A stretch of 64,000 bases of DNA from positions 558,001 through 622,000 of the forward strand of contig NZ_CP059066.1 of NCBI RefSeq assembly GCF_017301615.1, read 5' to 3'. A program made the position numbers and the translations under genes. The stretch is from Koleobacter methoxysyntrophicus (GTDB taxonomy: Bacteria; Bacillota; Thermosediminibacteria; Koleobacterales; Koleobacteraceae). Position 1 is the stretch's first letter; each line of letters begins with the position of its first letter. Below are positions 11,668 through 52,300 of the stretch, piece after piece. The notes below the pieces were generated by a model. That model saw only the letters and a list, made by a program, of their open reading frames with translations. It had not been told where the DNA came from and ran no database searches.

Positions 11668-11679
11668 TTATTGTACACT

Positions 11680-14536: not shown

Positions 14537-14610
14537 TGTACACCTCCTAACGAAGAAGCTCATTTTTCAGTAATGGTAAAATGTCAGGTTCAAGGTGTGA
14601 ACTGTGAATA

Positions 14611-14772
14611 TTAATAAAGGCTACCAGGGTCTTCATACAGGATTTTGGTATTTATGGCATATTCTTTGTTATAATCGTCGGGATTACCTTTGATATATCC
14701 AGATTTTAAAAGATGCTCCACAATATACTCTTCAAATCCCTTTTCTAAAAGTTCTTCAGGAGTTTTAGCCAT
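14611..14772 (-). pseudogene. HsdR N-terminal fragment (type I restriction remnant)
   Basis: Fifty-three codons starting MAKTPEELLEKGFEEYIVEH, followed by DDYNKEYAI, match the extreme N-terminus of type I restriction R subunits. The frame then stops at 14611, where a full HsdR would run about 1000 residues. It stands directly downstream of a nuclease-like gene and an HsdS tail, i.e. in the normal M-S-R order, so it is the stump of a decayed type I system. Confidence 0.75.
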
Positions 14773-14787
14773 TTAAGTCCCCCCAGA

Positions 14788-15696: not shown

Positions 15697-15711
15697 ATGA
15701 CCCACTCCAAG

Positions 15712-15930
15712 TTAATTGTTAATATTGTAATCCCTAACATCAATTTTACCCGTTACTGCTTCAGATATAAGGGATTGGCGGTATTCTTTTAGTTTTTGGA
15801 TTTGTGCTTGTATATCCTTAACCAAATCGGTAATCTGCGCAGTATAATTATCAAGATATTGTACAATACGCATTTGCTCATTTTTATCTGGTAATGCACA
15901 TTCCCATGCACCAATATCGGAGGCATTAAC
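15712..15930 (-). pseudogene. HsdS C-terminal fragment
   Basis: The frame ending at 15712 reads ALPDKNEQMRIVQYLDNYT, then LKEYRQSLISEAVTGKIDVR. This is the final coiled-coil and tail of type I specificity subunits (NEQ...IV..L, then SLISEAVTGKIDV). The rest of the subunit is absent: upstream of about 15930 the frame is overlapped by an unrelated reading frame. With the HsdR stump it marks a degraded type I system. Confidence 0.8.
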
Positions 15931-16255
15931 TGCTGGATGCCTCTTCTTCAGTAATAGGAAATCCGTGTTCCATCATACAATTTACGAAACTTTGAATTTT
16001 TTGCTCATAATTAATTGGATTATTATTATATTGATTTTGATATTGGTATGTCTGTCTTAATATATACATCGCAAGTACTCTATTCTTATTATATTTCTGA
16101 AGCAAATAATCAAATTGTTCTTTCTGTGAAGGTTCTACACTCTTTAATAATATATTCTCCTTTCGCGCAAGGAAAGCTATATAAGAGCTTTCACCTTGCG
16201 CAATAGCGCTATTAATGTCGTAATATTCCCATTTATCAGCATCTCCTTCTACCAA
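15926..16255 (-). CDS. Unrecognised frame, possibly a gene remnant
   Basis: About 109 codons; the frame is open a further 12 codons upstream with no clear start or ribosome-binding site. It has a Gln/Asn/Tyr-rich middle (YILRQTYQYQNQYNNNP) and an acidic end (ITEEEA). No family is recognised. It overlaps the HsdS tail frame at its end, which suggests that two unrelated pieces were joined here. Expression is doubtful. Confidence 0.3.
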   Translation of the reverse strand: MVEGDADKWEYYDINSAIAQGESSYIAFLARKENILLKSVEPSQKEQFDYLLQKYNKNRVLAMYILRQTYQYQNQYNNNPINYEQKIQSFVNCMMEHGFPITEEEASSS

Positions 16256-34211: not shown

Positions 34212-35672
34212 CTAATACCCAAGATAACTTAAATACTTGTTATATTCCTCCAATCTGCTCCTAATCAGCGTGTCATTCGGGTCTAAGCGTATGGCATAAT
34301 TAAAATAAGCCCTTGCCTTTTTAAAGTCTTTTCTCTGGTCGTATGCGTGACCAAGTTTTTTTACTATGTAGAGCATTCCAGGAGTCTTTTTATTAATGTC
34401 TTCCAGAATCTCTATGGATTTTTCCTGTTCATTATTTAAGCCATAGGCACATGCCAGCTTATATCTATAGTTCAAGTCGTCTGGATTCCTTGATACAAGT
34501 TTTTCATAAATTTTGACTGCTTCCTCATATCTTTTTAGTTCAAAAAATAATTTTCCTTTTAAATATAAAAGATTATCTTCTAAAGCCTCTCTTCTGACAT
34601 CCTCTACCTCTTTAATATCTATACTGTTTAGCACATCCATGCTGTCAAAATATCTTCCCTGCTGAAAATATGTATAAGCAATGTGATACAATATGTCAGC
34701 AGATTTATTTCCATTTTCATACTCCGTTTTTAGCAGTAGTTCTGCTTTATCAAATTCTTTATTCTTATAGTATCGGATTACTCTTTCTACCCAATCAGTA
34801 TCCTCATATCTTACTTCAACCCGCTCATTGTAGGAAATAATATTGCTATTTCCATTCCTTAATACCTCTTCGAAATCCCTTTTTACTTCCCTCACATTCT
34901 GATACCTTTCTTCAGGGTTTCTTTTAAGTAATTTCATGATAATTTCTTCAACCGATTCAGGTATATTATCATTTATCTCTCTTGGCCTTGGATAAGGCAT
35001 ATTATTTATTAATTGATTGGCAGTTTCATGAGGAGTTCTTCCAGTTAAAAACTTGTATAAAAGCACTCCCAATGCATATATATCCGAGTTAAGATACCTG
35101 CGGTTTGACCCAGCCACTTCTGGAGCCATATAAGCCCAGGTGCCTCCACCATCAATTGTCTTTATAAATAAATCTTCTATTAATTTACTTGTACCAAAAT
35201 CCGTTATTTTCACTATCTTCCCATCCGTTAGAATATTCTGAGGCTTTATATCCCCATGGCAAATATGCTTTGAATGGATATATTCTACACCATCAAGTAT
35301 CTGCAAAAATAATTTATAAATTTCTTCAAATGTCCTAGGACTCTTAAATCCCGTTTCACATAACTCGTCTGATAGTTTATGCCCGTTAAAATACTCCATT
35401 TCAATTAGAAAAACTCCATCTACCCGCCCCATCCAATATAGCGAAATAACATTTGGATGATGGCTATCGACAAATTCTTTACCTTCAGATAGAGTATTAT
35501 CTCCCCGTTCCTGGTCCTTAGGTATTTTGAGTGCCACTGTTTGCCTATTTTCAAGGTTTACAGCTTTCCATACATAACCAAAGGAGCCTTCATCAATAAA
35601 CTCTTTCAATAAATATTTATCTCCTATACTCATATCTACCTGTGGATGAAAATTAACTGCTTTTTTCTTCAT
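34212..35672 (-). CDS. Serine/threonine protein kinase with C-terminal TPR repeats
   Basis: This 486-residue protein ends the defence-like operon. The kinase domain spans residues about 18-270: glycine loop EGSFGYVWKA near 28-37, catalytic Lys K49 in VALKIPK, HGDIKPQN at 139-146, DFG at 158-160, and an APE-like YMAPEVAG. From about 300 to the end are TPR-type repeats (AELLLKTEYENGNKSADILY; DLNYRYKLACAYGLNNEQE; AYFNYAIRLDPND). There is no membrane segment. ATG 35672 lies just past the previous stop with an AGAGGTAGG box. Kinases of this kind appear in BREX type 2 and MADS loci; its target here is unknown. Confidence 0.85.
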   Translation of the reverse strand: MKKKAVNFHPQVDMSIGDKYLLKEFIDEGSFGYVWKAVNLENRQTVALKIPKDQERGDNTLSEGKEFVDSHHPNVISLYWMGRVDGVFLIEMEYFNGHKLSDELCETGFKSPRTFEEIYKLFLQILDGVEYIHSKHICHGDIKPQNILTDGKIVKITDFGTSKLIEDLFIKTIDGGGTWAYMAPEVAGSNRRYLNSDIYALGVLLYKFLTGRTPHETANQLINNMPYPRPREINDNIPESVEEIIMKLLKRNPEERYQNVREVKRDFEEVLRNGNSNIISYNERVEVRYEDTDWVERVIRYYKNKEFDKAELLLKTEYENGNKSADILYHIAYTYFQQGRYFDSMDVLNSIDIKEVEDVRREALEDNLLYLKGKLFFELKRYEEAVKIYEKLVSRNPDDLNYRYKLACAYGLNNEQEKSIEILEDINKKTPGMLYIVKKLGHAYDQRKDFKKARAYFNYAIRLDPNDTLIRSRLEEYNKYLSYLGY

Positions 35673-35674
35673 AA

Positions 35675-36316
35675 TTAACCTACCTCTACCCATTGATTTA
35701 GCGTTAGATTATCAATATTGCCTGAAGCAACACAACGATAAACCAGATAGGTCGTTTTCAAAGCATTTATTCCTCGTACATATGTACCATCATTTCTCTT
35801 AAAGCCATTATCCAGTATTGATATATATTCTTCAATATCTCCTGGATTTTCCCCTGCATAACTCCAATATACAAACAATATAATAGGTACATTTCCGCCC
35901 AACTGGTGATAAGCAAGAAGCAGATTTTGTATCTTTTCCTTGATTTTTAAATCTTTTCGTCTATTCTTTTCATATCTTTCAAATTCACAAATCAATATAG
36001 GGCTATTATCCTCTTTTGAATACCAAATAGAATCTGGTCTTACTTCGTTAACTTTTATTTCGTAACTGGCCTGGCTCTCTGCAACCATTTGTCCATAGTA
36101 GCTTCTTTCAGAATATGGAAATACAGGACATTCAGAAAGGGATGTAACCCCGTCAACGAATCTTCCTATTGCGGTTATATAATTAAGACCTACAGTGTGA
36201 ACAGTTTCTGAATAGTCTCTTATCCCGAATTTTGTCATCATAGGAAACATTTCGTTCCTAATATTTCCTTCTTTAAATTCTTTTTTTATGAAATCAATGA
36301 TTGTTTCCTTATTCAT
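35675..36316 (-). CDS. Unknown protein with nuclease-like D...E-x-E core
   Basis: This 213-residue protein starts at ATG 36316, overlapping the end of the HerA-like gene by 8 bases. The segment VRPDSIWYSKEDNSPILICEF, continuing with ERYEK, has the strand-acidic-strand pattern of PD-(D/E)xK-type nuclease folds, then helix KEKIQNLLLAYHQLGG. A similar layout is seen in the protein at 25931, but no named family is recognised. Position between HerA-like and kinase genes suggests a working part of the same system, possibly the nuclease. Confidence 0.5.
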   Translation of the reverse strand: MNKETIIDFIKKEFKEGNIRNEMFPMMTKFGIRDYSETVHTVGLNYITAIGRFVDGVTSLSECPVFPYSERSYYGQMVAESQASYEIKVNEVRPDSIWYSKEDNSPILICEFERYEKNRRKDLKIKEKIQNLLLAYHQLGGNVPIILFVYWSYAGENPGDIEEYISILDNGFKRNDGTYVRGINALKTTYLVYRCVASGNIDNLTLNQWVEVG

Positions 36317-38003
36317 TGAATACGCCCCATTCCTTGATAACTTCAGGGGATTCTCCACCATGTATAAGCGCTTTTGTTCCAACTTTTACTAACAGCGGTG
36401 CAGGTATTGACCTACCATTTATCAATGCTTCTCCCGTTGATAAAGATGGCAATTCTTCAATATCAGATGATGAAAACATATCTGACGTTCTTGCAATAAA
36501 CCTCTGGTCATCTGGATTCTTTAACCTCATTGTAATGATTGTATTACATTGCGATGTGACATCAGGATCCAATTTCGATGGTCTTTGAGAAATAATTGCA
36601 AACCCTGTACCAAACTTCCTTCCTTCTGCCGCAATCTTCTTGATAATTTTTTTAGATATGCTTGGAATCCCCGCAGGTGCAAAATTATGCCCCTCTTCAT
36701 AAACAAGAAAACATGGCCTTATCTGTTTTTTCTTATCCGATGCTGCCCTCATAATCTCACTGGATATCAATGCTGTTATAATTTGTTTAGCATCGTCAGA
36801 TAAACCTTGCAAGTCTATTATTACAAGCCTTCCTACGTTATTTCCCTTTTCTCCGACCATCTTATAAATATCTGTCGGCTCACCGATAGCCCTTGTATAA
36901 AAACTCCTTGCTTCATTGATTACTCGGGTTAATTTCATGGAAGCCACTGCTGCGCTTCTATTATTCAGCGCTTTTGCCTCACCTTCCGTCAAATTATCCC
37001 AATTCTTTAGTTCCTCAAGCCCCTGTTCGTCAGAAAGGAGATATGTTAAATCCTGAATATCCCGAGGCGGATTATTATATTTTGCTTTCCAATACCTGAT
37101 TGCAACATCTAATACTCTTTCCTGGGCCTCTGTTAAACCTGGAAGAATGGAAGATAAATCATCCATGTCAAATCTATCGAATTGAAGTGCCAGGTGATGA
37201 TTTTTTGCACTGTATTTATAATCAAAGGAATCCATTTGCGGAGTATATACTTTAATTCCTCCACCAGCCTTTATTAATTTTAAGAATTGTTCCTGAATTC
37301 TTTGAATACTTTTCCTTTCCCTTTCATCCTCAATAAAATCAAGATTGTTATTAAAATGTATCTCTCCCTTTTCAAATGCTTTTCCATATTCTCCATGAAC
37401 GTCAAAAACTACTACTGTTCCATTCATTTCTGCTACAAGCCTCTCAATAATTCTACCCACAGTGTATGATTTCCCTGAACCTGTCATTGCCAGCACAGCC
37501 AAATGTTCTGTAACCAGTTTGTTTACATCGAGATAAACAGGGACTATATTACTTCCCTTGTCGTATCCAATCAAATTGCCTATGTTAATGCTTACATTCT
37601 CATCAAACTTATAAAACTTTGACAAAAACTCATAATCAACTCCATATACCTTTTCCCCTGGGTTAAGGGGTCGCCTGGGTATTTTTATCTGCCCATAGTT
37701 ATCCCTGTACCCTACCAGTTCTATGGTCCCAAATAAAGTCTCCCCAGTAACTTGGGCACCTGGTAATATCTCAAGAGATGACAGCCCCTCCCCCATATTG
37801 GAGTTATATAAAATATTGCTTCTAGATATGGATACAATTCTTCCGAGAACATATGTATCACCATCTTCTTCCGATTCTCTATGCTTTATTTTTACAAATT
37901 CTCCTCTTTTAGCAGAAAAACTGTTTTCGAGAGCAATCTTTAAATCATTAGGATTGCCCGTATTGCCGATAAGTTTGCCTATGTATTTATCCACTACAAT
38001 CAC
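36309..38003 (-). CDS. HerA-like hexameric ATPase
   Basis: This 564-residue DNA translocase is of the HerA/FtsK superfamily. A HAS-barrel-like N-terminus (residues 1-110) is followed by Walker A AMTGSGKSYTVG (172-183), VFDVHGEYGKAF, Walker B RLVIIDLQGLSDD, and the FLVYEEGHNFAPAG box. The arginine-finger-like IISQRPSKLDPDVTSQCN lies near residue 480. HerA usually pumps DNA to a NurA nuclease, and a NurA-like gene lies 9 bases upstream. In defence islands HerA-type motors pair with nucleases or Sir2 domains. Confidence 0.92.
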   Translation of the reverse strand: MIVVDKYIGKLIGNTGNPNDLKIALENSFSAKRGEFVKIKHRESEEDGDTYVLGRIVSISRSNILYNSNMGEGLSSLEILPGAQVTGETLFGTIELVGYRDNYGQIKIPRRPLNPGEKVYGVDYEFLSKFYKFDENVSINIGNLIGYDKGSNIVPVYLDVNKLVTEHLAVLAMTGSGKSYTVGRIIERLVAEMNGTVVVFDVHGEYGKAFEKGEIHFNNNLDFIEDERERKSIQRIQEQFLKLIKAGGGIKVYTPQMDSFDYKYSAKNHHLALQFDRFDMDDLSSILPGLTEAQERVLDVAIRYWKAKYNNPPRDIQDLTYLLSDEQGLEELKNWDNLTEGEAKALNNRSAAVASMKLTRVINEARSFYTRAIGEPTDIYKMVGEKGNNVGRLVIIDLQGLSDDAKQIITALISSEIMRAASDKKKQIRPCFLVYEEGHNFAPAGIPSISKKIIKKIAAEGRKFGTGFAIISQRPSKLDPDVTSQCNTIITMRLKNPDDQRFIARTSDMFSSSDIEELPSLSTGEALINGRSIPAPLLVKVGTKALIHGGESPEVIKEWGVFNE

Positions 38004-38012
38004 CCCTCCTCC

Positions 38013-39173
38013 TTAATCCTCAAACACATCCAAATCTTCTTTCCAAATGCTTTCCAATGCCTCACTTTGGAGCATCTCCCTGGCTTGTGTTTTATAGTAT
38101 TCTAAAATCACATTTTTCCCGTTATTTGTGGCCTCAACTGGCTTTAAAGCATATTTGGCATACCATAATGGCAGTGGCAGTGCTTTTTTCTGGTCAAATG
38201 CAATCAGGGATATAATCTGAGAAGCCAGTTTATCCAGCATTTCAGATGACCAATCTTTTACGCCCCCTAATACTTCTACCAGAAGTGGTGGTGTAGTGTT
38301 TCCTGCCTTAATATGCATGCCCATTAATCCCACATCTCGTAAAGTTTCAGGCTCCAGCCTATTATCCTTATTTAAGCCATCATATTGAAATGCTGCTGTC
38401 CTTGTTCTTTTTACAAGAATACCTGTTAGCAGCCTTTTAATACCTACATCTTGAATTTTGGGCATTTGTTCTTCCATCTTTTTTATTATACTATTGTCTA
38501 CATCATCTGGAATATAGACTAAATTATCCTCAGTAAGTGCATATATAATCGCACCAAACCTTTTTGTTCCTACTGATGCGATTTTAATTCCATTTTCATT
38601 AAAAGGGTATACCATGTCCTTATATTTATCCCAGAAAAACTTAATGGTCTCCCTGCATTTATCATAAACTTTTATAGTATCCTTTCTATCTTTAAGGGGA
38701 GCATCCGAACGCTCAAGTACTAAAGGTACATCAACCAAAACGAGTTCAGGCTTTTCATCATCTTCCATCAAGTCAGACAAGAGTTTATAGATATTGATAA
38801 TATCTATAAACTTCAACTTTTTCTGATTATCCAGGTCATCTATCTCATCTACATCAACGATACTTTCCTGTCTTGTCTTATAAATAGAACCTTCATCTAT
38901 TAGAATATCCTGTCTTACTGCCCCAGCAACATATAGCATACCGCCAAATGCATTGGAAGTCCTATTGGTTGCCGCAATACCTGATGCCTTGATAGTAAGA
39001 GGGGCTATTAATTCTATATTCCTAACCACCCCACTTTCCTTTAGGGCAGGGGCTATTTTATCGATAAATCTCATTTTAGATGACAACCTGGAAACCGTGG
39101 CTGGAAGGCCTAATTGAATATTAGCCACTATGCTTTGGGATATTGGAGTACTATTTTCTTTAAATCCATCCAT
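38013..39173 (-). CDS. NurA-like protein, candidate partner of the HerA-like ATPase
   Basis: This 386-residue protein has NurA-like landmarks: ELVLVDVPLVLERSDAP near residues 140-156, KIASVGTKRFGA near 200, and the C-terminal QIISLIAFDQKKALPLPLWY, followed by AKYAL. The first Asp of the NurA active site is not evident in GGMLYVAGAVRQD, so catalysis is uncertain. ATG 39173 lies inside the end of the preceding gene by 14 bases. The HerA-like gene starts 9 bases after its stop, the typical HerA-NurA order. The call is an inference from pattern and context. Confidence 0.55.
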   Translation of the reverse strand: MDGFKENSTPISQSIVANIQLGLPATVSRLSSKMRFIDKIAPALKESGVVRNIELIAPLTIKASGIAATNRTSNAFGGMLYVAGAVRQDILIDEGSIYKTRQESIVDVDEIDDLDNQKKLKFIDIINIYKLLSDLMEDDEKPELVLVDVPLVLERSDAPLKDRKDTIKVYDKCRETIKFFWDKYKDMVYPFNENGIKIASVGTKRFGAIIYALTEDNLVYIPDDVDNSIIKKMEEQMPKIQDVGIKRLLTGILVKRTRTAAFQYDGLNKDNRLEPETLRDVGLMGMHIKAGNTTPPLLVEVLGGVKDWSSEMLDKLASQIISLIAFDQKKALPLPLWYAKYALKPVEATNNGKNVILEYYKTQAREMLQSEALESIWKEDLDVFED

Positions 39174-39960
39174 CTTTCTTTTCTCCCCTTTGTTTTACAG
39201 CATTGATAAAGGATTTCAATTTCCTTTCTTTAACTACAGTCATACCCTTGCTTAACAATCCATTCTCGTTAATATATTGATTTGCTACCAGGTCTTGATA
39301 TCCTTGCTTGGCAGTTTCTTCATCAATGAAAACTCCAAAATATTTATGAATTATACTTGACAGACACTGACTTAAGTCAATACCAGCCCCTGTCAGGATA
39401 ATCAAATAAATATGAATATCATCTAATATAAAATCTTTTGTTTCTACCAAGGATTCTTGTTTAACATCCTCAGCAAGGAGCAGGGAATTAAAAAGAGCCT
39501 TTAATTTATCTTCTAACTGAATCATTTTATAGTCCAATAACGGTAGGGTGACTACCGTTACTAGACCTGTTCCCGTATTCTTCCTGTAATGAATTCCAAA
39601 TTTCTTCCCATTTTGTTGAAATATAACATCTTTTGCTGTGGTATCAATCAAAAAGCCTATCGGAATTCCCTCATAATTATCATCTGTTCTACTTATTCTT
39701 ATATCTACCGATGAGTGAAGGATTTCCTTTAAATTCATTTCGGTCCAGGAAGGTGTAAGTATTAACTGGTTTTTATTATCCTCCAGCCATGTGTTAAGTA
39801 AGTCTAACTGTTGTTTGTTTAGTTTACTTAATAGAATTCCAGGCAGAACTAAGACTCCAGTTTGCAGTGAATTCATCTGGGTTACCTGGCAGTCATAAAA
39901 ATCCTTAAGAAGCCTGTATTCTGTTCTATTCTTATATTCATCTAATATTTGAATAGCCAT
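39160..39960 (-). CDS. Unrecognised protein of the defence-like operon (266 residues)
   Basis: No family recognised. The protein starts AIQILDEYKNRTEYRLLKDF and has alternating strand/helix character in the first half (TGVLVLPGILLSKLNKQQLD; NQLILTPSWTEMN). Its C-terminal 70 residues look like a winged helix (DEETAKQGYQDLVANQYINE, then GLLSKGMTVVKERKL). ATG overlaps the stop of the giant ATPase gene (TGATG), so it is translationally coupled to it. It lies between the ATPase and the NurA-like gene and may connect the two. Confidence 0.6.
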   Translation of the reverse strand: MAIQILDEYKNRTEYRLLKDFYDCQVTQMNSLQTGVLVLPGILLSKLNKQQLDLLNTWLEDNKNQLILTPSWTEMNLKEILHSSVDIRISRTDDNYEGIPIGFLIDTTAKDVIFQQNGKKFGIHYRKNTGTGLVTVVTLPLLDYKMIQLEDKLKALFNSLLLAEDVKQESLVETKDFILDDIHIYLIILTGAGIDLSQCLSSIIHKYFGVFIDEETAKQGYQDLVANQYINENGLLSKGMTVVKERKLKSFINAVKQRGEKKDGWI

Positions 39961-42900
39961 CACAGTACCTCAACCTTTGTCCGAATGAGTTTCACCGATT
40001 CTAACTCACGCTTTTCCTCAAGGTAGTCATCCCAGTTAATATCCCCATCTTTTTCCACTACCTGCTTAAAGAAACTAAATGTAGTTTTCTTAATTAATGG
40101 TGAGTTCTTAAAGAATGATTCACCTTCACTTGCAAGCAAATTCATTTTATTCTGTATCTCTTCTTTTGTAGCCGCATAAGTTTCCTCTTTTGGGTACTCT
40201 TCCGTATTTATCTGCGCGGATACGGGAGGTTTTCCCTGTACTCTGCATATCTTATCTACAGTACTTATCAGCAAATTATCATAAAACTCATTCTTCTTTG
40301 TCCTTGCTAAATTCATTACATTTGTTTTATAGCCTTCAATAAGCCCTACACACTGCTGCATATCTTCTACCCTCTTTTTAAGAAGCGCCAAAAATTCATC
40401 AGGCTTACTCAGCATAACTGGCTCGTTATCTTCAATCTCCTGTTCAAGACCGCCGTTTACAAATAACTCTATTTCCTTAATACAGTTGCTTAAATTCTTC
40501 ACCTCAGTATGATTCCTTAATTTTTCTGGAGCATCAGAAAAATAATCAACCCACTTTTTGCTTTCAGGTAATTTCTTATAACAGTCAATGATAGAAGTAA
40601 AATTCTTATAAATAGCCCTATACTCACCTATTATTCCTCTATCATTAGCCCACTTTAATGCATTGTTCTCAATAGGTTCTAATCCGCAGGCATTAAGAAT
40701 ATCTTCAATTCGCTTATATGCTCCACTAAAATCCCCATCTTTTAACTTATATGCTAATGTATTTATATAGGAAACCATAGTCCCTGTACCCGATATAGTC
40801 ATCTTTTCGTAATCTGTTGAGTTCTCCAGTTCATTACAATACTTTTGCAGTATATTCGTTATCGGAGAAATAGGAAGCATGAATCCGCCATACTCACAAT
40901 TTTTCTTGATTTCTGCAATTTTATCTGTAATACTCTTTACTGCTGGGTCCTTTAAGGTATTAATATAGTCTATAAACAATCTTATATGCCTTACCCTAAA
41001 CCACAAGGGCTTCTCCTTATCATCAATTTTAATATCCTTTATGATGTTTGGATTATAGGTTTTGATATTATTCCACCCATCACTATCATATACTTGGTAG
41101 CAAATCCCAAGGAATTTCTCAATCTTCGAAACAACATCCCTGAATTTTTCCATATTCTTATCATCTCTTTTTGATAACTTATCAATATTAATGCTGTCCT
41201 TAATTTTTTCAGCCTCTTGAAGTTGTACTTTATAATAAGGTACCTGATTCTTCTCAAGGACATCCAAATAAGGACCGTTGATAACCTTCTTCATGCTGTC
41301 AATTTCTTTCTTGCAGTCATCTTCCAGCCATTTTTTAACTACAGAATACCTGCCGTCCAACTCATAATTGGATATTCTCTCAATAAAACCGTCCTTGGTT
41401 TTTAGCAAAAGATTTAGCCCCATCATAAACTCTATCCACTGCTCTAGAATGCGTTTCGGCTTTACCTCATGTATAAGGCTGAAAAAAAATTTATTGCCGT
41501 AATCAGCCATGGATTTGTTGCTGTTTCCATTAAACTTCAGTATTCTGTTCATACATGCGGGTATATTTATGCTGTATCTATTTTCATCCTCATGAATGAA
41601 TAAACCTGTTTCCTTATATCCTTTTCCCTCATTCATTCTGCCTATGGCGGTTGACTTCAAAACGTTCTTTAACTCCGTATATTCTGCATCAGGCAATCTC
41701 ACATCTTTTTTGCTTCCAAGTTCCTCAAAATCAATGCCGTGGATGAGCATTCGCTTATAAGCCTTTGACAGCAGCGCTATTTGTTTCTCATCATGTTTCT
41801 TATAGATGATAGGTCTTAATATCCAGCCTTCCTCATCTAATTTTTCAAACCATTCTCTTGCCTTTAAGTTAAAATGGTCCCTGATTTTTCTGATTCTATC
41901 CCTAAAGGTAGAAGTAATAACGTTCCTGTTCTCCCTTATATCCAATATGTCCTTATCTATGGACATGACCTCTAAAATATCCTTTTGAAGTCTGGTTATG
42001 TTGACAAATATCAAGCACTTTCCTATGCCTTCATACTTTTCTTTTACAAATTTCTCCGTGTAATCTGCACTAATAACAGAATCAGAGATTACAATTATAG
42101 GATGTACCCCATCTTTTAAAAGCCTGCTATCTAACAGTACATCTTTTAGTTTCTCTTCATCCTTGCCCCAGATAATATCTACTATTCTGTCCTTATGAAC
42201 ATCAAGATATGGTCCTGCTTCTACCTTGGTCCTGACACATTCAACGCCATTGATAGTATAGAAACTTTCTTCAGGGTAATTTATCTCTAAAGCCCTGCAG
42301 GCACCTGAAAGAACCCTTTTTACTTCCTCTTTTCTATTTTTGCTCCTTTCTTTTACTAACGCTTCAATCTCTTTGTTTTTTTCAGTATCTGGAACGTAGC
42401 CAAAATCATCTTTTTCTACTCTATACCTTTTATCAAGGCGGCTTAAATAGGCAAAGTTTGGTCCGATATATTCTGCTTCCTTTATATCTTCTTTTTCTAT
42501 TTTTTCAAGGATATATCCATAGATATACCTTGCTGATTCTTCAATATCATCCTTCAGATACAGCATCCTGACCTGGTCTAAAAATGTTTCTTCTTCCTTC
42601 CCCACAATATACTCATTTTCTTTTACATTGAGAGAAAAAGTTTTTAGGCTTCTCAAAAGTATGCCTAAATCAAAACTGCTACCGAAATTATTAACAAAGA
42701 TATCTCCCATCTCTCTTTTGTAGCCTTGAGAATTGAGATAAACCGCCAAATCATCCTTTTCTAATTTCACACAGTAAAACTCTTTGAATAACTTTTCGCC
42801 ATCTTCTGCCTTTGCATCCATCATGGCATTTATTTCTTCCGCAGAATAGTTTGTTTTCTTATTAGGGATTTGCTCTAAAAGAGCATGCTTAATAGTCCGC

Positions 42901-44021
42901 CTGAATCTATCATCACACTGAATATAGTCAAAAGCAGGCTTATCAATCAAACTTTCTTTAAAGCGGTTGCTGGAGTTTAATATGGCTTCAAAGATATATC
43001 CTGTCTCTTTTTTCACTGAACTGTCTTCCATCTTTTGGTCTACGTTATACATAATAACGTTAAACCAGCCAAAATTACCTCCTGCTATGGTATAGGCTGC
43101 TTCTATCAGTCCTTTTGGATACTCAGGTATCATACCCTTCTTGTTAAGATAAGCGATATAATCCGATATATCTGCAAAGGAATTCTGAAGCATTTCATAC
43201 ATTTCCGTTCTTCTGTCTAAAGCACCTATCCCCTGGATACTACCTCCTATAACTGTAGAACACAAAAGAAGATAGGAAACCTCCGGATATTTCTTTCTCG
43301 GGTCTTCATGTTTTATAGCACTTGTAATTACCTGAATTGCTTCTCCATCTATTTTGTTTACCAGTTCCTTCTCTTTTTCAATTCCATACTTTGCAATTTC
43401 CCCCGCTGTTTCTAATTCATCACAGATAATAAGAAAATGTTCAATACCGAATTGCTTAACATACTCCATTCCTTTTCGGGTTAGTTCATCCAATTTTTCT
43501 TTGTTTATAACCAGTTCACTCAAATCCACTCTGTCTACTTGAAGTAAATCTCCAAGGATGCTTCTATCAAACCCTACAGGAGATAAGGCATCTTGAATAG
43601 CTTCCATAATCTTTCCTTGAATGCTTCCATCGGATTCTCTGCTTAAATAGGACAGCGCTGTATAAATGCCGTAAGCCACCCAGTTATCTCCAATTAAATC
43701 AGGATGGCACATTTGGGAATACCTTATGTATAACGGGAGAACCTTATCTTCAAAATTAGGTTTAAAAATTCTGACTTCTTTTTGCTCACCATCCTCATTA
43801 ATAATCCACCCTTTATCCATGCCAAGAGGTTCTGAAATAAGTTCGAAACCGATACGCGACTTACCGACACCCCACTTTGAAATCAGCGGGAAAATAGTTG
43901 CCATCCCTGCACTTTTCATAGTCTTCGTAAAGCCTTTGAAAATTTCATAAAACTCTTTCTGCCCTACCATCGGCTGATTTAAAGGAAAATCACTGGTACC
44001 GAAAGGAGCCCATATAGACAT
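39960..44021 (-). CDS. Giant P-loop ATPase (1353 residues), core of the defence-like operon
   Basis: The Walker A motif ISKWGVGKSRIG is at residues 47-58 and a Walker B-like FLIICDELETAGE at about 196-208, in an AAA-type or KAP-like NTPase domain. The remaining 1100 residues are mostly helical with no recognised motif, rich in Lys/Glu. Large ATPases of this layout (BrxC/PglY, DptF, DUF6079-like) are hallmarks of BREX and other multi-gene defence systems. I cannot assign it to one. ATG 44021 is preferred over 44027 because AGGAGGG directly abuts the latter. The end overlaps the next gene. Confidence 0.8.
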   Translation of the reverse strand: MSIWAPFGTSDFPLNQPMVGQKEFYEIFKGFTKTMKSAGMATIFPLISKWGVGKSRIGFELISEPLGMDKGWIINEDGEQKEVRIFKPNFEDKVLPLYIRYSQMCHPDLIGDNWVAYGIYTALSYLSRESDGSIQGKIMEAIQDALSPVGFDRSILGDLLQVDRVDLSELVINKEKLDELTRKGMEYVKQFGIEHFLIICDELETAGEIAKYGIEKEKELVNKIDGEAIQVITSAIKHEDPRKKYPEVSYLLLCSTVIGGSIQGIGALDRRTEMYEMLQNSFADISDYIAYLNKKGMIPEYPKGLIEAAYTIAGGNFGWFNVIMYNVDQKMEDSSVKKETGYIFEAILNSSNRFKESLIDKPAFDYIQCDDRFRRTIKHALLEQIPNKKTNYSAEEINAMMDAKAEDGEKLFKEFYCVKLEKDDLAVYLNSQGYKREMGDIFVNNFGSSFDLGILLRSLKTFSLNVKENEYIVGKEEETFLDQVRMLYLKDDIEESARYIYGYILEKIEKEDIKEAEYIGPNFAYLSRLDKRYRVEKDDFGYVPDTEKNKEIEALVKERSKNRKEEVKRVLSGACRALEINYPEESFYTINGVECVRTKVEAGPYLDVHKDRIVDIIWGKDEEKLKDVLLDSRLLKDGVHPIIVISDSVISADYTEKFVKEKYEGIGKCLIFVNITRLQKDILEVMSIDKDILDIRENRNVITSTFRDRIRKIRDHFNLKAREWFEKLDEEGWILRPIIYKKHDEKQIALLSKAYKRMLIHGIDFEELGSKKDVRLPDAEYTELKNVLKSTAIGRMNEGKGYKETGLFIHEDENRYSINIPACMNRILKFNGNSNKSMADYGNKFFFSLIHEVKPKRILEQWIEFMMGLNLLLKTKDGFIERISNYELDGRYSVVKKWLEDDCKKEIDSMKKVINGPYLDVLEKNQVPYYKVQLQEAEKIKDSINIDKLSKRDDKNMEKFRDVVSKIEKFLGICYQVYDSDGWNNIKTYNPNIIKDIKIDDKEKPLWFRVRHIRLFIDYINTLKDPAVKSITDKIAEIKKNCEYGGFMLPISPITNILQKYCNELENSTDYEKMTISGTGTMVSYINTLAYKLKDGDFSGAYKRIEDILNACGLEPIENNALKWANDRGIIGEYRAIYKNFTSIIDCYKKLPESKKWVDYFSDAPEKLRNHTEVKNLSNCIKEIELFVNGGLEQEIEDNEPVMLSKPDEFLALLKKRVEDMQQCVGLIEGYKTNVMNLARTKKNEFYDNLLISTVDKICRVQGKPPVSAQINTEEYPKEETYAATKEEIQNKMNLLASEGESFFKNSPLIKKTTFSFFKQVVEKDGDINWDDYLEEKRELESVKLIRTKVEVL

Positions 44022-44032
44022 ATCCATCCCTC

Positions 44033-45088
44033 CTAATCTCTAATCTCCAACTTAATTAATTGATAATCTTTTTTCCCCAGCAAGCCTCTGCCGTGCCTGG
44101 GCTGTCCCTGCTCATGGTCTTTAACTATAAACTTTCCTTTGTTTATACTTGTAATAAAGTAATGGTCAATCCATTGCTCTTCTGCCAAGGTATTTTCACT
44201 GTCAACCTTCTTTTTCAATATGGAGCCTACTATTCCTACTGGAAAAAATCCCCTTGCATCCGAGTATTCTTCAATTAATTTATGTAGTATTTCTATATCA
44301 TCCACATCGGCTTCATTTACTAAACTTTCATATACATCAATGCCAGCATCCTCTTTTATCTTATGTTTATCTAAAATGTACCTTCCATCTTCGCTTTCAT
44401 CAATCCACCCTAAGTAGTCAAATAACAGCATTGGTATTTTTAAATAAGTACTCATGGAGCCTAAAGAAGGATAATCTTTATTAACGCCCCTAAATTCTAT
44501 TTCTTCCCCATCTCCAATATCAAGTTCCTTTCTCCAGAAATCACCTAATATCTTTGATTGATTCTCCTTCATTAAACTATTAATGTTCATTTCATCAGGC
44601 TTGCTGCTGAAAATGTAAAACTTCTTGTCATTTAGGGTTATATAAGCCTTTGCAAAGTTTTCCATATACCCTTTTTCAAAATAGAGATATCCTCCGTTTA
44701 ACATTGCATAAGCAACGGTCCTAATTCTTATGGAATACTTTAATAATTGACTTCCCAATACCTTTTCCCATTCCTCATTATGTTTAAATCTTTCTACCAG
44801 TTCAGCGGCACCCTCTGTAAGTTCATATCCGCCTTCAATTTCCTTTATAAAGTTACATCCAACGATAGTTAAAGAGTCTTTATCTTTTTCTGCACCGAAA
44901 AGGCCATATACCTCATCAGCATTGACAATTCTTCCGCCCTCGTCAACCTTATAGCCCAGATAATCCCTGGCTAAATCTTTTTTACTGCTGCAGGGTGTTT
45001 TCTTTGGTAGGGATTTTAAAATTTCTGCCCATCTTTCTATATTGGATGCCTTTACCCAAAATCTGTCCGTACCTATCTTGATAATCAT
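44033..45088 (-). CDS. Unrecognised protein of the defence-like operon (351 residues)
   Basis: No family recognised. It starts IIKIGTDRFWVKASNIERWA and ends GLLGKKDYQLIKLEIRD. Short winged-helix-like segments appear (GGYELTEGAAELVERFKHNE; YILDKHKIKEDAG), suggesting DNA or partner binding. Its start overlaps the upstream gene by 4 bases and the ATPase gene begins 11 bases after its stop. Together with the preceding 354-residue protein it may form accessory subunits of the ATPase. Confidence 0.6.
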   Translation of the reverse strand: MIIKIGTDRFWVKASNIERWAEILKSLPKKTPCSSKKDLARDYLGYKVDEGGRIVNADEVYGLFGAEKDKDSLTIVGCNFIKEIEGGYELTEGAAELVERFKHNEEWEKVLGSQLLKYSIRIRTVAYAMLNGGYLYFEKGYMENFAKAYITLNDKKFYIFSSKPDEMNINSLMKENQSKILGDFWRKELDIGDGEEIEFRGVNKDYPSLGSMSTYLKIPMLLFDYLGWIDESEDGRYILDKHKIKEDAGIDVYESLVNEADVDDIEILHKLIEEYSDARGFFPVGIVGSILKKKVDSENTLAEEQWIDHYFITSINKGKFIVKDHEQGQPRHGRGLLGKKDYQLIKLEIRD

Positions 45089-46149
45089 AATGTATTCCTC
45101 AACTTTTCTACATAATCTTTAAGGGTGTTTTTAAACTTTCTGGAGCGGTTTTTTATAATAATATCCTTTGAGTATATCAGGTCTTTAAACTTTTCATTAA
45201 GGACGTATTCCCCATCCTTAAAATCAATTTTCTGCTCATCCATCATATCAAAAACCACCTTATCTACTTCAGGAGCCTTATCTGGGAAAAGGTACATATC
45301 ATTTTCCATGCAAAATTCATATACAAAATCATTGAGCCTTCCTACCCTAACTTCTCTGCCCTTTGTATTAAAAATGTAAAAGTCTAAAGGCTGGGTTGTA
45401 TAATAGTTGGTGTGGTCCGTAGGTCTTATGGATAAACCTTCAAAACCAGCGGTCTGGTATTCAAGGGCTACCATTGATAGTATTGTTAAAAAAGTTTTCC
45501 ATGGGTAAGAAAGGACCTCTGCTACTTTCTCTTCCACTGGAAAATCCCTGTATTCATAGGGAGTAAAGGTATATTTATTTTTATCTTTTAACTTCGAAAG
45601 GTTTACAGATGAAGTTATCCTCCTGCCCTGTACCCATATTTCATTAGGGTTATTACCCATCGGTGATAACTCCACATCCTCTGTATCCTCTGCCAACTGC
45701 ATGAATTTTAGTTTTGTAAGTATTGAAGGATATTGAGGATACCCATTAAACACAGCCTGATAAAAGGACTTTATTTCTTCCGTCTCTTCTACATCTTTAT
45801 CCTTGATGTTTAATATAGTTTCAGCAAATTCAGGAATGTTGTCTACAAACTCATATAAGGCTTTGCTGTCTCCCCTTTGACCTATAATACAAGCCTCTTC
45901 GTATACTTTTTTCAGCAACTTATGTAACAGAGGCGGATAGAAACAGAGAAGTGAAGATATAAAATCTTCCCTGCTTACCTTTCCGCTGAACTTAATCCAT
46001 TTTTTTGTGATAACCAGCCTGTCTTCTGCAAGGCTAATAAAGTTTTGGTCTATAAGGTATTGCATATCTATGTTATTTTTTATTTCCCCGTAGTCGTATA
46101 GGTTATTTAAACTTTTCACCAATGCGTTTATGTTTATCAAAGGTCTCAC
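45085..46149 (-). CDS. Unrecognised protein of the defence-like operon (354 residues)
   Basis: No family recognised. It starts RPLININALVKSLNNLYDYG and has a helical N-terminal half followed by a region with many aromatic residues (RPTDHTNYYTTQPLDFYIFN; VRVGRLNDFVYEFCMEN). There is no membrane segment or catalytic signature that I can name. It follows the specificity gene by 23 bases and overlaps the next gene by 4, which ties it to the system. Confidence 0.6.
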   Translation of the reverse strand: MRPLININALVKSLNNLYDYGEIKNNIDMQYLIDQNFISLAEDRLVITKKWIKFSGKVSREDFISSLLCFYPPLLHKLLKKVYEEACIIGQRGDSKALYEFVDNIPEFAETILNIKDKDVEETEEIKSFYQAVFNGYPQYPSILTKLKFMQLAEDTEDVELSPMGNNPNEIWVQGRRITSSVNLSKLKDKNKYTFTPYEYRDFPVEEKVAEVLSYPWKTFLTILSMVALEYQTAGFEGLSIRPTDHTNYYTTQPLDFYIFNTKGREVRVGRLNDFVYEFCMENDMYLFPDKAPEVDKVVFDMMDEQKIDFKDGEYVLNEKFKDLIYSKDIIIKNRSRKFKNTLKDYVEKLRNTL

Positions 46150-46172
46150 CTGCCTTTGCTCCGTACAAAATT

Positions 46173-47615
46173 TTAACTATTTGCTTTTACTTTTGACATG
46201 TCGAAGTTGCCTTCTATAAGATCTTCTACGTCTTGCTTGGCTTCTTGAATTAGTTGTTTTGATTGATTAATTTTGTCTTTATATCTTACGATTCTATCTT
46301 CTATTATCAACTGTATGTCTATATCGATAAGTGGTACTTCTATTTCCCCTAACAATTCATTATTTATATACTTCACAGTTGCTTGTGTTGATATAATATC
46401 CAACGCTAAATTTCCAAAATAACTATTAAGATATAATGATAAATAATATGGTTTAATAAAATTAATATTTTTTAATGTCAATGCTGCAATATTTTGGTTA
46501 GTAGTACAATTATCCATATCGACAACTGATGACCTTCCAAGCGTTCCAGCAATAGATACCAAAATATCACCTTTAGGAATAATCCTTAGTTTTTTTTCAT
46601 CATAATTATCATTCACATAAAGCATATCATCTTTTTCAAGAATACAATAACCTAAATTGTTTACCCTTAAAAATTTAATCTTTTTTTCATCTTTATTAAC
46701 ATACTTGTTTTGTGGAGTAGTACCTGTTCTTATATTTTTAACGATATCCTTGATTTTTTTAGTTTTTATTCCATTTTTATTCAGAATATGTTTATATAAA
46801 ATATAATTAGGCTTATAGTATTCACTATCTATTCTTGTGTCAATTTCCTTATCTGAAAGCCATATATACTTATTTACTATACTTTTTTGTTTTTCCAAAT
46901 ATTGCTCTTGCTTTAACTGACTATATAATATCTCTTCAGCCTCTTTCTTCAACCTTTTCGCTTCTTCTCTCAACTCTTCTGCTTTTCTAACCTTATCTCC
47001 TATGTATTTTTGAATTTCGGGAGATGGGATGGGGATTAATATAGATTTTAAAGTCTCCATATCTATCTTAGGTTTCGCAGAATTCATCATTCCTTGCCAA
47101 ATTTGATTTTGACCATATTTGGACTTGATAAAAGTTAAAACATAGTAACTATCAATATTGCTTTTTATTGTAACTCCCATAAGATTCCCGCTAATATTAC
47201 ATTCAAATAAATGAGTTGGTATAATAGCAACATCGCCTATTCCATTACCAATTTTTGTAAATATTAAATCTCCTGATGAGAATCTTGAACTTTTTAATCT
47301 TTTACTATCTTCTTTAGAGATAAAAACAACATTATTATCCACTTCAACGATATAATCTTTACAATTTAGAGGTCTTATAAATGGAATACCCTTATCAACG
47401 TATTGTGAAGCAAGAAGTGCTGATCCAAATGGCCCGCTATTCATTCTTGAGCAAATATCAAACAAACTCATTTTTATTAATTTACATTGAAGCAACTTGT
47501 TATAATACTGTATATATTTTAATGAATAGAAATAAGCATCTATTCTATCAACTAGTAATTCTTCTTGTGCCCATATGCAGCTTGGTTCAATAGACATAAT
47601 ATAATAATCAGACAT
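46173..47615 (-). CDS. HsdS-like DNA specificity protein
   Basis: This 480-residue protein has two target-recognition halves, each followed by a helical spacer, as in type I specificity subunits. The first half holds YVDKGIPFIRPLNCKDYIVE and SGDLIFTKIGNGIGDVA, then SPEIQKYIGDKVRKAEELRE. The second holds IRTGTTPQNKYVNKD, ILVSIAGTLGRSSVV, and the coiled coil INQSKQLIQEAKQDVEDLI. It should guide the adjacent methyltransferase to a bipartite site. ATG 47615 follows GGGTGGTGAG, 13 bases after the methyltransferase stop. No HsdR accompanies it. Confidence 0.88.
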   Translation of the reverse strand: MSDYYIMSIEPSCIWAQEELLVDRIDAYFYSLKYIQYYNKLLQCKLIKMSLFDICSRMNSGPFGSALLASQYVDKGIPFIRPLNCKDYIVEVDNNVVFISKEDSKRLKSSRFSSGDLIFTKIGNGIGDVAIIPTHLFECNISGNLMGVTIKSNIDSYYVLTFIKSKYGQNQIWQGMMNSAKPKIDMETLKSILIPIPSPEIQKYIGDKVRKAEELREEAKRLKKEAEEILYSQLKQEQYLEKQKSIVNKYIWLSDKEIDTRIDSEYYKPNYILYKHILNKNGIKTKKIKDIVKNIRTGTTPQNKYVNKDEKKIKFLRVNNLGYCILEKDDMLYVNDNYDEKKLRIIPKGDILVSIAGTLGRSSVVDMDNCTTNQNIAALTLKNINFIKPYYLSLYLNSYFGNLALDIISTQATVKYINNELLGEIEVPLIDIDIQLIIEDRIVRYKDKINQSKQLIQEAKQDVEDLIEGNFDMSKVKANS

Positions 47616-47628
47616 ATTTCTCACCACC

Positions 47629-49521
47629 CTATTCTACGTCCTCTGGCATACCTTTTTTATAAGCCTCCACAATCTTTAATAAGTCGTTGTGGTCATCGCC
47701 TAACTGTACTTCTACATTCTGTTTTACAGTAAATCCCACTTCATCTGCTACCGCCATAAATACAGGACCCTGTTTTTCTCCAGGATGTTCCTTCTTCTTT
47801 AAGTATAGCAGTGAAGTTTTTGCACCTGCTCCTGAAAGAGCAAAGGTTTCTTGCGGAAGGCTTATAACTGCTTTCAGCATCGCTTTGCCACCTTCAAATT
47901 CCCCTGTAACAGTGTTCTTTTTACCCATAATATATTCACGGACATATTTATACCCTGAGTTCGAAAGAATTCCGTCTGGTACAACTATCATTAGTAGCCC
48001 GCCTGGTTTTAATAATTGGAGGTTTCTATCAATGAATAATACCGCAGGGTCTACCGAATTTACTTCTTTCCACTTCCCTCTACTGTCTGGTTTGGAGCCA
48101 AGACATAAATATTTTTGTTCAGGGTCATTTTTTAGCATTCCATCTTCATCTATACCTTCGGAATAACGTTTGATAATTTCAACTCCTTCTGGATTTTCTA
48201 CTGTTGTTCTACCTTTCTTAATTGTCTTTGAGACTCCAGTTTTTGAAAATGGGGGATTTGTAAGGATTGCATCGAATGTCCCTGGTTTAAGGCGTGTATT
48301 CATAAGGGAATTTCTTGTTTGGAAAATAGGACACTTAGGCGCTCCATGCAGTGCCATATTGATTCTTGCCTTTAGAACCATTCCCGGAGCATTATCCGCA
48401 CCAATAAAACAGTGTTCCTTCATTTGTTCAAAAAGTTCTTCATACTGTTTCTTGTCTCCTGTCAATTTGTTCAGAAGGTAGTGTTCTATCTTCTGAAGCA
48501 TTTTTATTAAAAAGCCTGCCGAACCGCAGCACAAATCACCTATGCGGAGGGTAGGTATTCCTGTTTTGGGGTCTTTAGCAATTAGTTTTGCTGCCCCGTC
48601 TTTGGTAAGGTCGTGCAGAACCATCTCGGCTGCTGCTTCCGTTACCTGTCTTGGGGTAAGATAGATACCCATACCGCCTTTATTCTCAAACTTTCCACGA
48701 AGCAGTACATCAAAAACCCTGCCCAATACATCTCCTGTCAAATCCCTTAAAGTGGCAGGTCTCTCTACACCGTCAATTATTATTGTCCCTAAATCCTGGA
48801 GAGCCTTTAAAACAGCAATATAGATGTTGGGATTCTCCAGTTTTATATATTCATCTGCACTAAATATGTTGGCCTTTTCTCCATTATCCAAAATAGCAAC
48901 ATAATCTGCATGGTCTTTTATTTCTTTAAAGGCTTCCCTTATCTCCTGAACTGCCTTATCCTTATGTTTTTCTACATATTCGTATCTATATATTTCGTTA
49001 AATAGTTTCCCTGTTACATTTCCCTTAGTTAATCTATATTCAGGATGATAAAGCCTGAAGGTCTCCAAAAAAATAAGTTTGCTGAATTCATCGATTACAT
49101 CATTGGAGTTATTTACATGGTCCTTCATTCCATAAATCATTTCATGGAGTCCATCAAATTTCTCTTGTAACTCTTGATATTTTCTTATTGACCACTTGTC
49201 CCTATCAGTAAGTTGCCTTTTGCCTGAGTACAATTTGTTTTCATCTTCAAAGACTGATGGAATTTCAGAAACAGCCTTTTCCTCTTCAACAAGGACATAG
49301 GCATTACTTCTACCGTTTGTAATCCAAGCATATGTAGAAATAGGGTCTGTTGCCATTGCCTCAAATGTTATGGCAGTAACCAGTTCTGGTTTTAACTGCT
49401 CTTCATCTACTTTTTTTACATATACATATACATCTTTGTGACTGGCTATAAAGGTAGCATCATCAATATCCTTTATTTCCTCGTAACCAAGTTTTTTGAT
49501 TTTATCCTTTAGTTCCTGCAT
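47629..49521 (-). CDS. HsdM-like N6-adenine DNA methyltransferase
   Basis: This 630-residue type I-like methyltransferase has SAM-binding motif I GDLCCGSAGF at residues 329-338 and catalytic motif IV NPPF at 422-425 (TNPPFSKTG). The N-terminal 100 residues (ASHKDVYVYVKKVDEEQLKP, TYAWITNGRSNAYVL) form an HSDR_N-like nuclease-fold domain, common in this subfamily. HsdM helical bundle and C-terminal coil are present. It should methylate host DNA with the HsdS-like partner to mark self. The ATG has GGAGGAA upstream. Confidence 0.92.
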   Translation of the reverse strand: MQELKDKIKKLGYEEIKDIDDATFIASHKDVYVYVKKVDEEQLKPELVTAITFEAMATDPISTYAWITNGRSNAYVLVEEEKAVSEIPSVFEDENKLYSGKRQLTDRDKWSIRKYQELQEKFDGLHEMIYGMKDHVNNSNDVIDEFSKLIFLETFRLYHPEYRLTKGNVTGKLFNEIYRYEYVEKHKDKAVQEIREAFKEIKDHADYVAILDNGEKANIFSADEYIKLENPNIYIAVLKALQDLGTIIIDGVERPATLRDLTGDVLGRVFDVLLRGKFENKGGMGIYLTPRQVTEAAAEMVLHDLTKDGAAKLIAKDPKTGIPTLRIGDLCCGSAGFLIKMLQKIEHYLLNKLTGDKKQYEELFEQMKEHCFIGADNAPGMVLKARINMALHGAPKCPIFQTRNSLMNTRLKPGTFDAILTNPPFSKTGVSKTIKKGRTTVENPEGVEIIKRYSEGIDEDGMLKNDPEQKYLCLGSKPDSRGKWKEVNSVDPAVLFIDRNLQLLKPGGLLMIVVPDGILSNSGYKYVREYIMGKKNTVTGEFEGGKAMLKAVISLPQETFALSGAGAKTSLLYLKKKEHPGEKQGPVFMAVADEVGFTVKQNVEVQLGDDHNDLLKIVEAYKKGMPEDVE

Positions 49522-49534
49522 GAAAAATTCCTCC

Positions 49535-49897
49535 TTAATTTTTTGCTCTCATTAAAACAGCGCCATTGGAATGAAGTTTGTATTTCCCACTTTGCTCAGC
49601 AATTCTTGATATCTCTTCTGCACTGACAGTAATATCATTTGGTACATACTCCATAATCCTTTTTATAGGTACAACAGGTTTGCCATCCATTACTTTATCC
49701 ACTATGTCCAATATAATAGTATTTAGATTATTTCCTCCAACACTGTATAAATCCCCAGTCTTTTTAATATTACTATCCATAAGAAGAAATAGTTGTATTT
49801 GTGCTTTATTCCATTTCACTCCAAGCTCTTTTAACCTTTGGTGTAACTCTTCAACAGACTTAGGGGTTTTCAGTTGTTCGTATATTATTTCTACCAA
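49535..49897 (-). CDS. Small winged-helix-like protein, first gene of the defence-like operon
   Basis: About 120 residues from TTG 49897, 7 bases after AGGTGG. Residues 8-60 look like a winged helix (KTPKSVEELHQRLKELGVKW, NKAQIQLFLLMDSNIKK). The second half (VPNDITVSAEEISRIAEQSG) suggests another small helical domain. It stands 13 bases before hsdM and immediately downstream of a perfect inverted repeat, so it may regulate the operon. No family name can be given. Confidence 0.55.
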   Translation of the reverse strand: MVEIIYEQLKTPKSVEELHQRLKELGVKWNKAQIQLFLLMDSNIKKTGDLYSVGGNNLNTIILDIVDKVMDGKPVVPIKRIMEYVPNDITVSAEEISRIAEQSGKYKLHSNGAVLMRAKN

Positions 49898-49918: not shown

Positions 49919-49950
49919 TGCCAGTTGTGGTTACAAATCCACAACTGGCA
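49919..49950. promoter_or_regulatory. Perfect 12-bp inverted repeat ahead of the defence-like operon
   Basis: TGCCAGTTGTGG and CCACAACTGGCA are separated by 8 bases and end 21 bases before the TTG start of the first gene. It could be an operator for the small winged-helix protein or an RNA hairpin controlling the operon. No T-run follows, so a terminator is less likely. Confidence 0.5.
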
Positions 49951-50053: not shown

Positions 50054-50232
50054 ATACCTGGTTTAAAGCAGCCTTCTCTTTATGAAGTTCATAACATTCT
50101 TTGATAATTTGCTTCTTAAATTCATAACTGTACTGGTTTTTGCTACTCATTAACATCTACCATCTACCCCCCATTTCCTTATTAAAGATTATCGCATTAG
50201 ACAGATTTTCTCCAAAGGTTTTGGGGGGCTAT
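50054..50232 (-). mobile_element. IS3-family remnant, left end plus OrfA start
   Basis: The frame from ATG 50150 reads SSKNQYSYEFKKQIIKECYE, an OrfA N-terminus, then is lost. Upstream, TATATAGCCCCCC at 50220-50232 is an IS end shared with the remnant at 52647-53036. It separates the main operon from the DUF2188 and membrane-protein genes. The rest of the gap 49951-50309 holds nothing else I can support. Confidence 0.6.
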
Positions 50233-50309
50233 ATAGACATTGGCTCTCCATACATCCCTTTCATAATGAAAACTGAAAAATACTCTTCTTGCCATGAGTA
50301 ATGCCTCCT

Positions 50310-52291: not shown

Positions 52292-52300
52292 ACAATTCAC

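Follow-up and report, generated by a model that had tools for sequence, protein, structure and literature searches.

The 64,000-nucleotide stretch of Koleobacter methoxysyntrophicus DNA analyzed here (contig NZ_CP059066.1, positions 558,001 to 622,000; hereafter the window) encodes, on the minus strand at 34212-49897, eleven co-directional genes that link a DNA methyltransferase and its specificity subunit to a giant ATPase, a HerA-type motor, two nuclease-like proteins, and a protein kinase. The initial annotation, made from the sequence alone, had described these genes as a tightly packed set, and an open reading frame (ORF) check finds all eleven in place, with neighbor gaps of -19, -74, 9, -14, -4, 5, -4, 23, 1, and 13 bp. 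The 74-bp overlap of the nuclease gene with herA shrinks to approximately 11 bp if the nuclease starts at an internal ATG (36319). The ATPase was rightly called giant, its length being 1355 rather than 1353 amino acids (aa), and the eleven parts stand as listed, although the list was incomplete in missing a second HsdS-like protein, S2, at 51017-52300. Across its versions, the cassette spans roughly 16 kb and 9 to 12 genes. In the window, the genes are as follows.

51017-52300, minus strand: S2, second HsdS-like protein with two target-recognition-like halves, 427 aa (PADLOC and hhalign; no Pfam recognition)
49535-49897, minus strand: p120, small protein at the operon head with a TTG start, family of approximately 115 to 180 aa, conserved directly upstream of M
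47629-49521, minus strand: M, HsdM-type N6-adenine DNA methyltransferase, 630 aa (Pfam and PADLOC; NPPF intact)
46173-47627, minus strand: S, HsdS-type specificity subunit with two target recognition domains (TRDs), 484 aa (Pfam Methylase_S, 4e-20, matching in two stretches)
45085-46149, minus strand: p354, uncharacterized protein, in the family of a Gram-negative protein of approximately 400 aa (p400) found in the same position
44033-45088, minus strand: p351, extra uncharacterized protein, in Firmicutes and some other loci only (tblastn/blastp neighborhoods)
39960-44027, minus strand: giant P-loop ATPase, 1355 aa, with Walker A GVGKS and Walker B DELE motifs
39160-39963, minus strand: p267, fast-evolving uncharacterized protein between ATPase and NurA, its position kept in almost all loci
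38013-39173, minus strand: NurA-fold protein, 386 aa, apparently without the essential NurA aspartate (AlphaFold2 and Foldseek)
36309-38003, minus strand: HerA, hexameric DNA-translocase family ATPase with a HAS-barrel, 564 aa (Pfam)
35675-36319, minus strand: predicted PD-(D/E)XK-type nuclease, approximately 214 aa from the ATG at 36319, the ORF opening at 36382 (motif and fold)
34212-35693, minus strand: Ser/Thr protein kinase with C-terminal TPR repeats, 493 aa (Pfam Pkinase, 1e-44, and TPRs)

We observe that these genes are a conserved, horizontally moving, and coevolving unit. Related loci were found by searching with the ATPase alone, neighboring genes playing no part in the retrieval. 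Of 300 genomes in the phylum, 5 have the ATPase. Scanning genome contigs with an alignment recovers 74 loci from many phyla, among them Firmicutes (Tepidanaerobacter, Herbinix, Clostridium, Halanaerobium, and Paenibacillus) and Proteobacteria (Pseudomonas, Vibrio, Legionella, Acinetobacter, Pantoea, and Azospirillum), with further loci in Cyanobacteria, Planctomycetes, Acidobacteria, Verrucomicrobia, and Fibrobacter. The full core of M, S, ATPase, NurA, HerA, nuclease, and kinase is encoded at 50 of the 56 loci with enough flank, in the same order at 48 of the 56, and several of the exceptions involve broken or split ORFs. At three loci (L058, L086, and L088), the S gene stands between NurA and HerA instead of after M. 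Between phyla, HerA is 59 to 68% identical and the ATPase mostly 22 to 39%. When the 45 loci that have every part are compared, correlations between the pairwise identities of ATPase, M, HerA, NurA, nuclease, and kinase range from 0.88 to 0.95; in the 37 non-Firmicute loci, the ATPase correlates at 0.90 to 0.95 with the others and at 0.85 with p267 (Mantel P = 0.001, 999 permutations). S correlates at only 0.44 to 0.51 with the other parts (0.49 with the ATPase in the 37 non-Firmicute loci). Since the correlations are high except for S, the methylase shares its evolution with the motors and the kinase, S being the part that is exchanged.

Among close relatives with 95 to 96% identical methylases, the S proteins are 33 to 57% identical, and in one relative the first TRD of S is shared (66 to 93%) and the second is not (14 to 47%), with the conserved regions kept. 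As judged from these alignments, S undergoes TRD swaps between near-identical operons. S2 is 91 to 96% identical in near relatives despite the swapped operon S. It matches PADLOC mad5 (1e-22) and Specificity_I (1e-20), and by hhalign the HsdS family aligns with the S2 family (E = 9e-40) and with the upstream S-like family of other loci (E = 9e-32). We find S2-type proteins at 8 Firmicute loci and a related S-like protein just upstream of p120 in 20 others. In the window, remnants of other genes separate S2 from p120, whereas S2 directly abuts p120 in other loci (e.g., L089); it is likely the twelfth part of the cassette. E. coli and its relatives carry a McrB/McrC-family pair at the operon head, in the position of S2 (L062, L063, L064, L084, L090, and L091). 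Speculatively, S2 may link the restriction machinery to DNA regardless of the swappable mark. Between p120 and S2, at approximately 50190-50295 on the minus strand, lies an apparently decayed fragment, a frame starting MARRVFFSFHYERDVWRANV, which by eye looks like the beginning of a Thoeris ThsB-type TIR protein.

The HsdM/HsdS-like pair, HerA, and the Ser/Thr kinase-TPR protein, all named in the initial annotation, are recognized by Pfam, PADLOC, and NCBIfam. M matches Pfam N6_Mtase (9e-23) and the PADLOC model MTase_I PDLC03024 (1435 bits), and its family conserves the NPPF motif. HerA matches Pfam DUF87/HerA (1e-47) and HAS-barrel (2e-14) and has an intact Walker motif, and the kinase family conserves HGDIKP and DFG, so that its catalytic motifs are intact. 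In the same three databases, the ATPase, p354, p351, p267, the NurA-like protein, and the small nuclease have only marginal matches. Walker A residues of the ATPase are invariant in 30 relatives, and weak KAP_NTPase/AAA_16 matches appear in a few family members only. A PDB sequence search with the ATPase, NurA-like, and nuclease profiles returned nothing credible; coiled-coil PDB matches of the ATPase C terminus were rejected as low-complexity artifacts. Among the smaller proteins, p120 has no Pfam match, its Firmicute and other-phyla families align with each other by hhalign (probability 99.6, E = 1e-24), and a winged-helix fold is possible for it, judging by sequence. p354 aligns with p400 (probability 100, E = 7e-39) and p351 shows no hhalign relation to either, while p267 has a median identity of 27% among loci and no consistent Pfam match. 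A perfect 12-bp inverted repeat (TGCCAGTTGTGG/CCACAACTGGCA) lies at 49919-49950, 22 bp upstream of p120. It was considered as a conserved operator and rejected, as the repeat was not found upstream of p120 in relatives. Promoter-like sites occur at or below shuffle expectation.

Two proteins were candidates for the cutting activity that the initial annotation had assigned to the motors and a nuclease. In the small nuclease, E63, D96, E112-x-E114, R115, and K129 are invariant in 41 of 41 sequences, the E-x-E form being reminiscent of BamHI. Its AlphaFold2 model (pLDDT 90.1) has EcoRI, BstEII, and MunI as best Foldseek matches (probability 0.96 to 0.97, E = 2e-3 to 8e-3); with EcoO109I included, probabilities run from 0.97 to 0.72 and E values from 0.002 to 0.03. 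The assignment as nuclease-like thus holds by fold and invariant motif. The NurA-like protein was also correctly named by fold: its model (pLDDT 86.5) best matches Sulfolobus NurA in the PDB (2ygk, E = 7e-12), followed by HerA-NurA complexes, with weak sequence-profile support for NurA. In our comparison set of genuine NurA proteins, Asp-Gly-Ser, Glu, and Asp-Gly are conserved in no fewer than 14 of 15 sequences. In a weak profile alignment, the catalytic Asp position of the NurA-fold family is non-acidic in 42 to 43 of 43 sequences (S/A/V/G/T in one register; mostly A/S, with one D among the 43, in the other), the canonical Glu is without a conserved acidic counterpart, and only the third Asp of the Asp-Glu-Asp set (D148) is kept. 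Within the family alignment, D89, D109, D148, and E274 are conserved at 90% or above, and H287 is invariant. In T. kodakarensis NurA, activity is abolished by D49A, which replaces the corresponding Asp (PMC12977600). The NurA-fold protein is therefore probably a pseudo-nuclease or has a relocated active site. As this protein apparently lacks the essential NurA aspartate, cutting is more plausibly the work of the small PD-(D/E)XK protein, our best candidate.

The claim that no HsdR is present extends beyond the operon: none is encoded within it, and we find no HSDR_N match in the complete 3.10-Mb genome, the same search being positive in 9 of 14 control genomes. The M/S pair is therefore not borrowing an HsdR of that family.

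Apart from S, the operon proteins share 86 to 98% identity with their Herbinix and Clostridium sp. N3C counterparts, whereas GlmS is 54 to 62% identical, a sign of horizontal transfer in recent times. Directly adjoining glmS on its downstream side is a low-GC region (~11.0-52.9 kb) at whose edge the operon sits, and glmS is also near the operon in one other genome (G045). In E. coli, the HerA of this operon family occurs in 252 of 5426 complete genomes, all chromosomal, and at least 80% of the 15.3-kb operon is found in 207 of the 5426 (approximately 4 to 5% overall). An intact E. coli version is that of NZ_CP030331.1 (4112815-4128168). At the two E. coli loci viewed, the operon sits between nanM and a leuX-side integrase, in one case beside tRNA-Leu, and its neighbors are McrBC-family genes and a gene for restriction of phosphorothioate DNA. 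Both loci fall within the leuX hotspot, which is described as the defense island of E. coli with the highest occupancy (PMC12707154). RefSeq labels six core E. coli proteins "hypothetical". No relatives of the ATPase were found in plasmids or in viral contigs, and a HerA search of plasmids and phages gave only distant HerA-family matches.

The low-GC region itself measures approximately 42 kb (~11000-52900), ends just downstream of glmS in an attTn7-like place, and contains insertion sequence elements and HEPN, ADP-ribosylglycohydrolase, UDG-family, DUF5655, and IrrE-type genes; no Tns genes were found among its scanned genes. At its other end, where GC content falls from 0.48 to 0.32, an ORF (10169-11446) joins a TetR-type N terminus to a diol-dehydratase large subunit of which only the C-terminal half is present, which probably marks where the edge of the island interrupted a dehydratase gene.

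The gene set falls under no system profile of PADLOC, NCBIfam, or Pfam, and in PADLOC profiling the genes match no single published system. Type I restriction-modification (R-M; HsdRMS) shares HsdM, an HsdS with two TRDs, and TRD swapping, but here eight or more other conserved subunits stand in place of HsdR. BREX (types 1 to 6) and its related systems likewise combine a methylase with a very large P-loop ATPase, and type 2 also has a kinase; the operon differs in replacing PglX/BrxX with separate HsdM and HsdS proteins, M matching PglX at E = 0.0016 as against 1435 bits for the type I methyltransferase model. PglZ/BrxZ has no Pfam, PADLOC, or NCBIfam match among the ten operon proteins scanned, BrxL and DUF499 have no profile match in the operon, and at the profile-to-sequence level the ATPase matches no BrxC/PglY profile in these databases, only KAP/AAA_16 weakly. 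The HerA-NurA end-resection complex also pairs a HAS-barrel HerA with an adjacently encoded NurA-fold partner; our operon departs from it in the apparent loss of the NurA catalytic Asp and in its methylase/kinase context, and HerA scores 197 bits against an equivalog cutoff of 970. SIR2-HerA, DUF4297-HerA, and the "HerA/FtsK capture" systems (DndFGH, BRC) share a HerA-family motor paired with an effector in defense, but the operon is without SIR2, DUF4297, DndFG, PglZ, or TGT and has a twelve-gene architecture with a methylase. TALON/ARMADA was rejected as an identity, being centered on YprA helicases with HerA unmentioned in that preprint (PMC12458937), as were BREX-related capture systems, which require PglZ, DUF6079, and DUF4007 (PMC12839542). 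The accessible parts of these two sources, of the DefensePredictor paper (PMC13092281), and of the HerA/FtsK-capture paper (PMC10853773) do not describe the cassette, and the RefSeq accessions of the E. coli operon proteins are not mentioned in the literature searched. Further work on McrBC branches associated with methyltransferases is promised in the CoCoNuT paper (PMC11090510) and may bear on the E. coli version.

The widespread operon is thus apparently unnamed and very probably a methylation-guided defense variant nearest in logic to MADS. Both combine a methylase, a specificity subunit, a Ser/Thr kinase, and an ATPase of HerA type within a single multi-gene cluster that has no HsdR. The initial suggestion of a variant or new type of methylation-linked defense system agrees with the conserved, coevolving gene set, the E. 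coli defense hotspot, and the lack of a covering profile, and we consider it very probable that the operon is a defense system. With somewhat less assurance, we think it likely that the mechanism set out below, that of an R-M-like system with HsdR replaced by a multi-protein HerA machine, is right in outline. We infer methylation and restriction in the following order of events, including the roles given to the ATPase, the kinase, and S2. M and S would mark host DNA by adenine methylation within a bipartite site, and exchange of S by TRD swapping would change the mark and leave the rest unchanged. When unmodified DNA enters, an M/S (or M/S2) complex would fail to find the mark. The giant ATPase, with the fast-evolving p267/p354, may serve as assembly platform or sensor and would load HerA as a ring with the NurA-fold protein as its cap. 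The ring would pump DNA, which the small PD-(D/E)XK nuclease would cut, and the TPR-kinase, by phosphorylating one of the components, could permit the attack or hold it back. Tentatively, and at somewhat short of even likelihood, we read the cassette as an unnamed, phylum-spanning R-M class with a HerA ring, a dead NurA-fold adaptor, a giant ATPase, an EcoRI-fold nuclease, and kinase control, in which a swappable S sets the mark and a conserved S2 stays with the restriction machinery.

Several points weigh against this reading. No function can be assigned to p354, p351, p267, and p120, and the ATPase could have a role other than sensor or platform. With its catalytic Asp seemingly lost, the HerA-NurA module may not degrade DNA, and the fold match of the nuclease is moderate (E = 1.6e-3). 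Absence from the plasmid and phage collections is, moreover, unusual for a highly mobile defense module.

A rather unlikely alternative is that the operon is a divergent MADS subtype with the same logic, sharing ancestry through MAD2, MAD5, MAD6, and MAD8, the other subunits having diverged past profile recognition. As profile comparisons indicate, M, S, the kinase, and HerA are distantly related to MADS components: in PADLOC, the kinase matches mad6 (1e-56), S mad5 (3e-42), HerA mad8 (1e-27), and M mad2 (5e-18), and NCBIfam adds MADS2, MADS5, and MADS6, although the scores (115, 157, and 143 bits) are far below the curated cutoffs (720, 400, and 460 bits). The same proteins match many non-MADS models, M that of type I methyltransferases, HerA a plain HerA model with a better score, and the kinase PD-T4-6, and neither the window proteins (E <= 0.01) nor the scanned Pantoea relatives (E <= 1) have a PADLOC match to mad1, mad3, mad4, or mad7. 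The operon further differs from MADS in its 1355-aa ATPase, NurA-fold protein, PD-(D/E)XK nuclease, and second HsdS-like protein, the two being set apart here by profile scores. A MADS6 family search places 0 of 300 genomes of the phylum above the cutoff, the best match in the genome of the window being a long PglW-like kinase. This 1514-residue ORF (G000:C1:2585104-2586816; L010), the best match of MADS6/PglW type, suggests a BREX type 2-like locus elsewhere in the genome. Plasmid searches with the kinase and S gave only unrelated kinases and ordinary type I-like loci. Among plasmids, Vibrio vulnificus NZ_CP012741.1 (L112) encodes at 9220-16007, in one operon without HsdR, a Fic-domain protein, an N6 methylase, an S protein, an ATP-binding protein, and a hypothetical protein, possibly another small methylase-linked defense module.

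The HerA-NurA module might itself restrict through a relocated active site (e.g., D89, D109, D148, and H287), with the PD-(D/E)XK protein as an accessory. The NurA fold (E = 7e-12) and the conservation of D89, D109, D148, and E274 (at least 90%) and of H287 are compatible with this, but the position of the essential Asp (D49 of T. kodakarensis; PMC12977600) is non-acidic in nearly every family member and the Glu has no counterpart in the weak profile alignment, and we regard this as fairly improbable. Very unlikely, in our view, is a solitary regulatory methylase-specificity pair beside a chromosome-maintenance or repair operon in HerA-NurA style, with no role in defense. Archaeal HerA-NurA is indeed a DNA end-processing pair (PMC12977600), M and S are complete without HsdR, and the ATPase is missing from plasmids and viral contigs; such a pair is hard to reconcile with the patchy distribution in the phylum and in E. 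coli, horizontal transfer, location in a defense hotspot, the tight coevolution of M with the motors and the kinase, and TRD swapping.

Annotation pipelines would render this operon as an incomplete type I R-M system with hypothetical proteins. The pseudo-NurA and the conserved second HsdS raise specific mechanistic questions, and the E. coli copies make the operon directly testable. If active, it would be a major overlooked defense system and would clearly exemplify the replacement of HsdR by a HerA-based machine.

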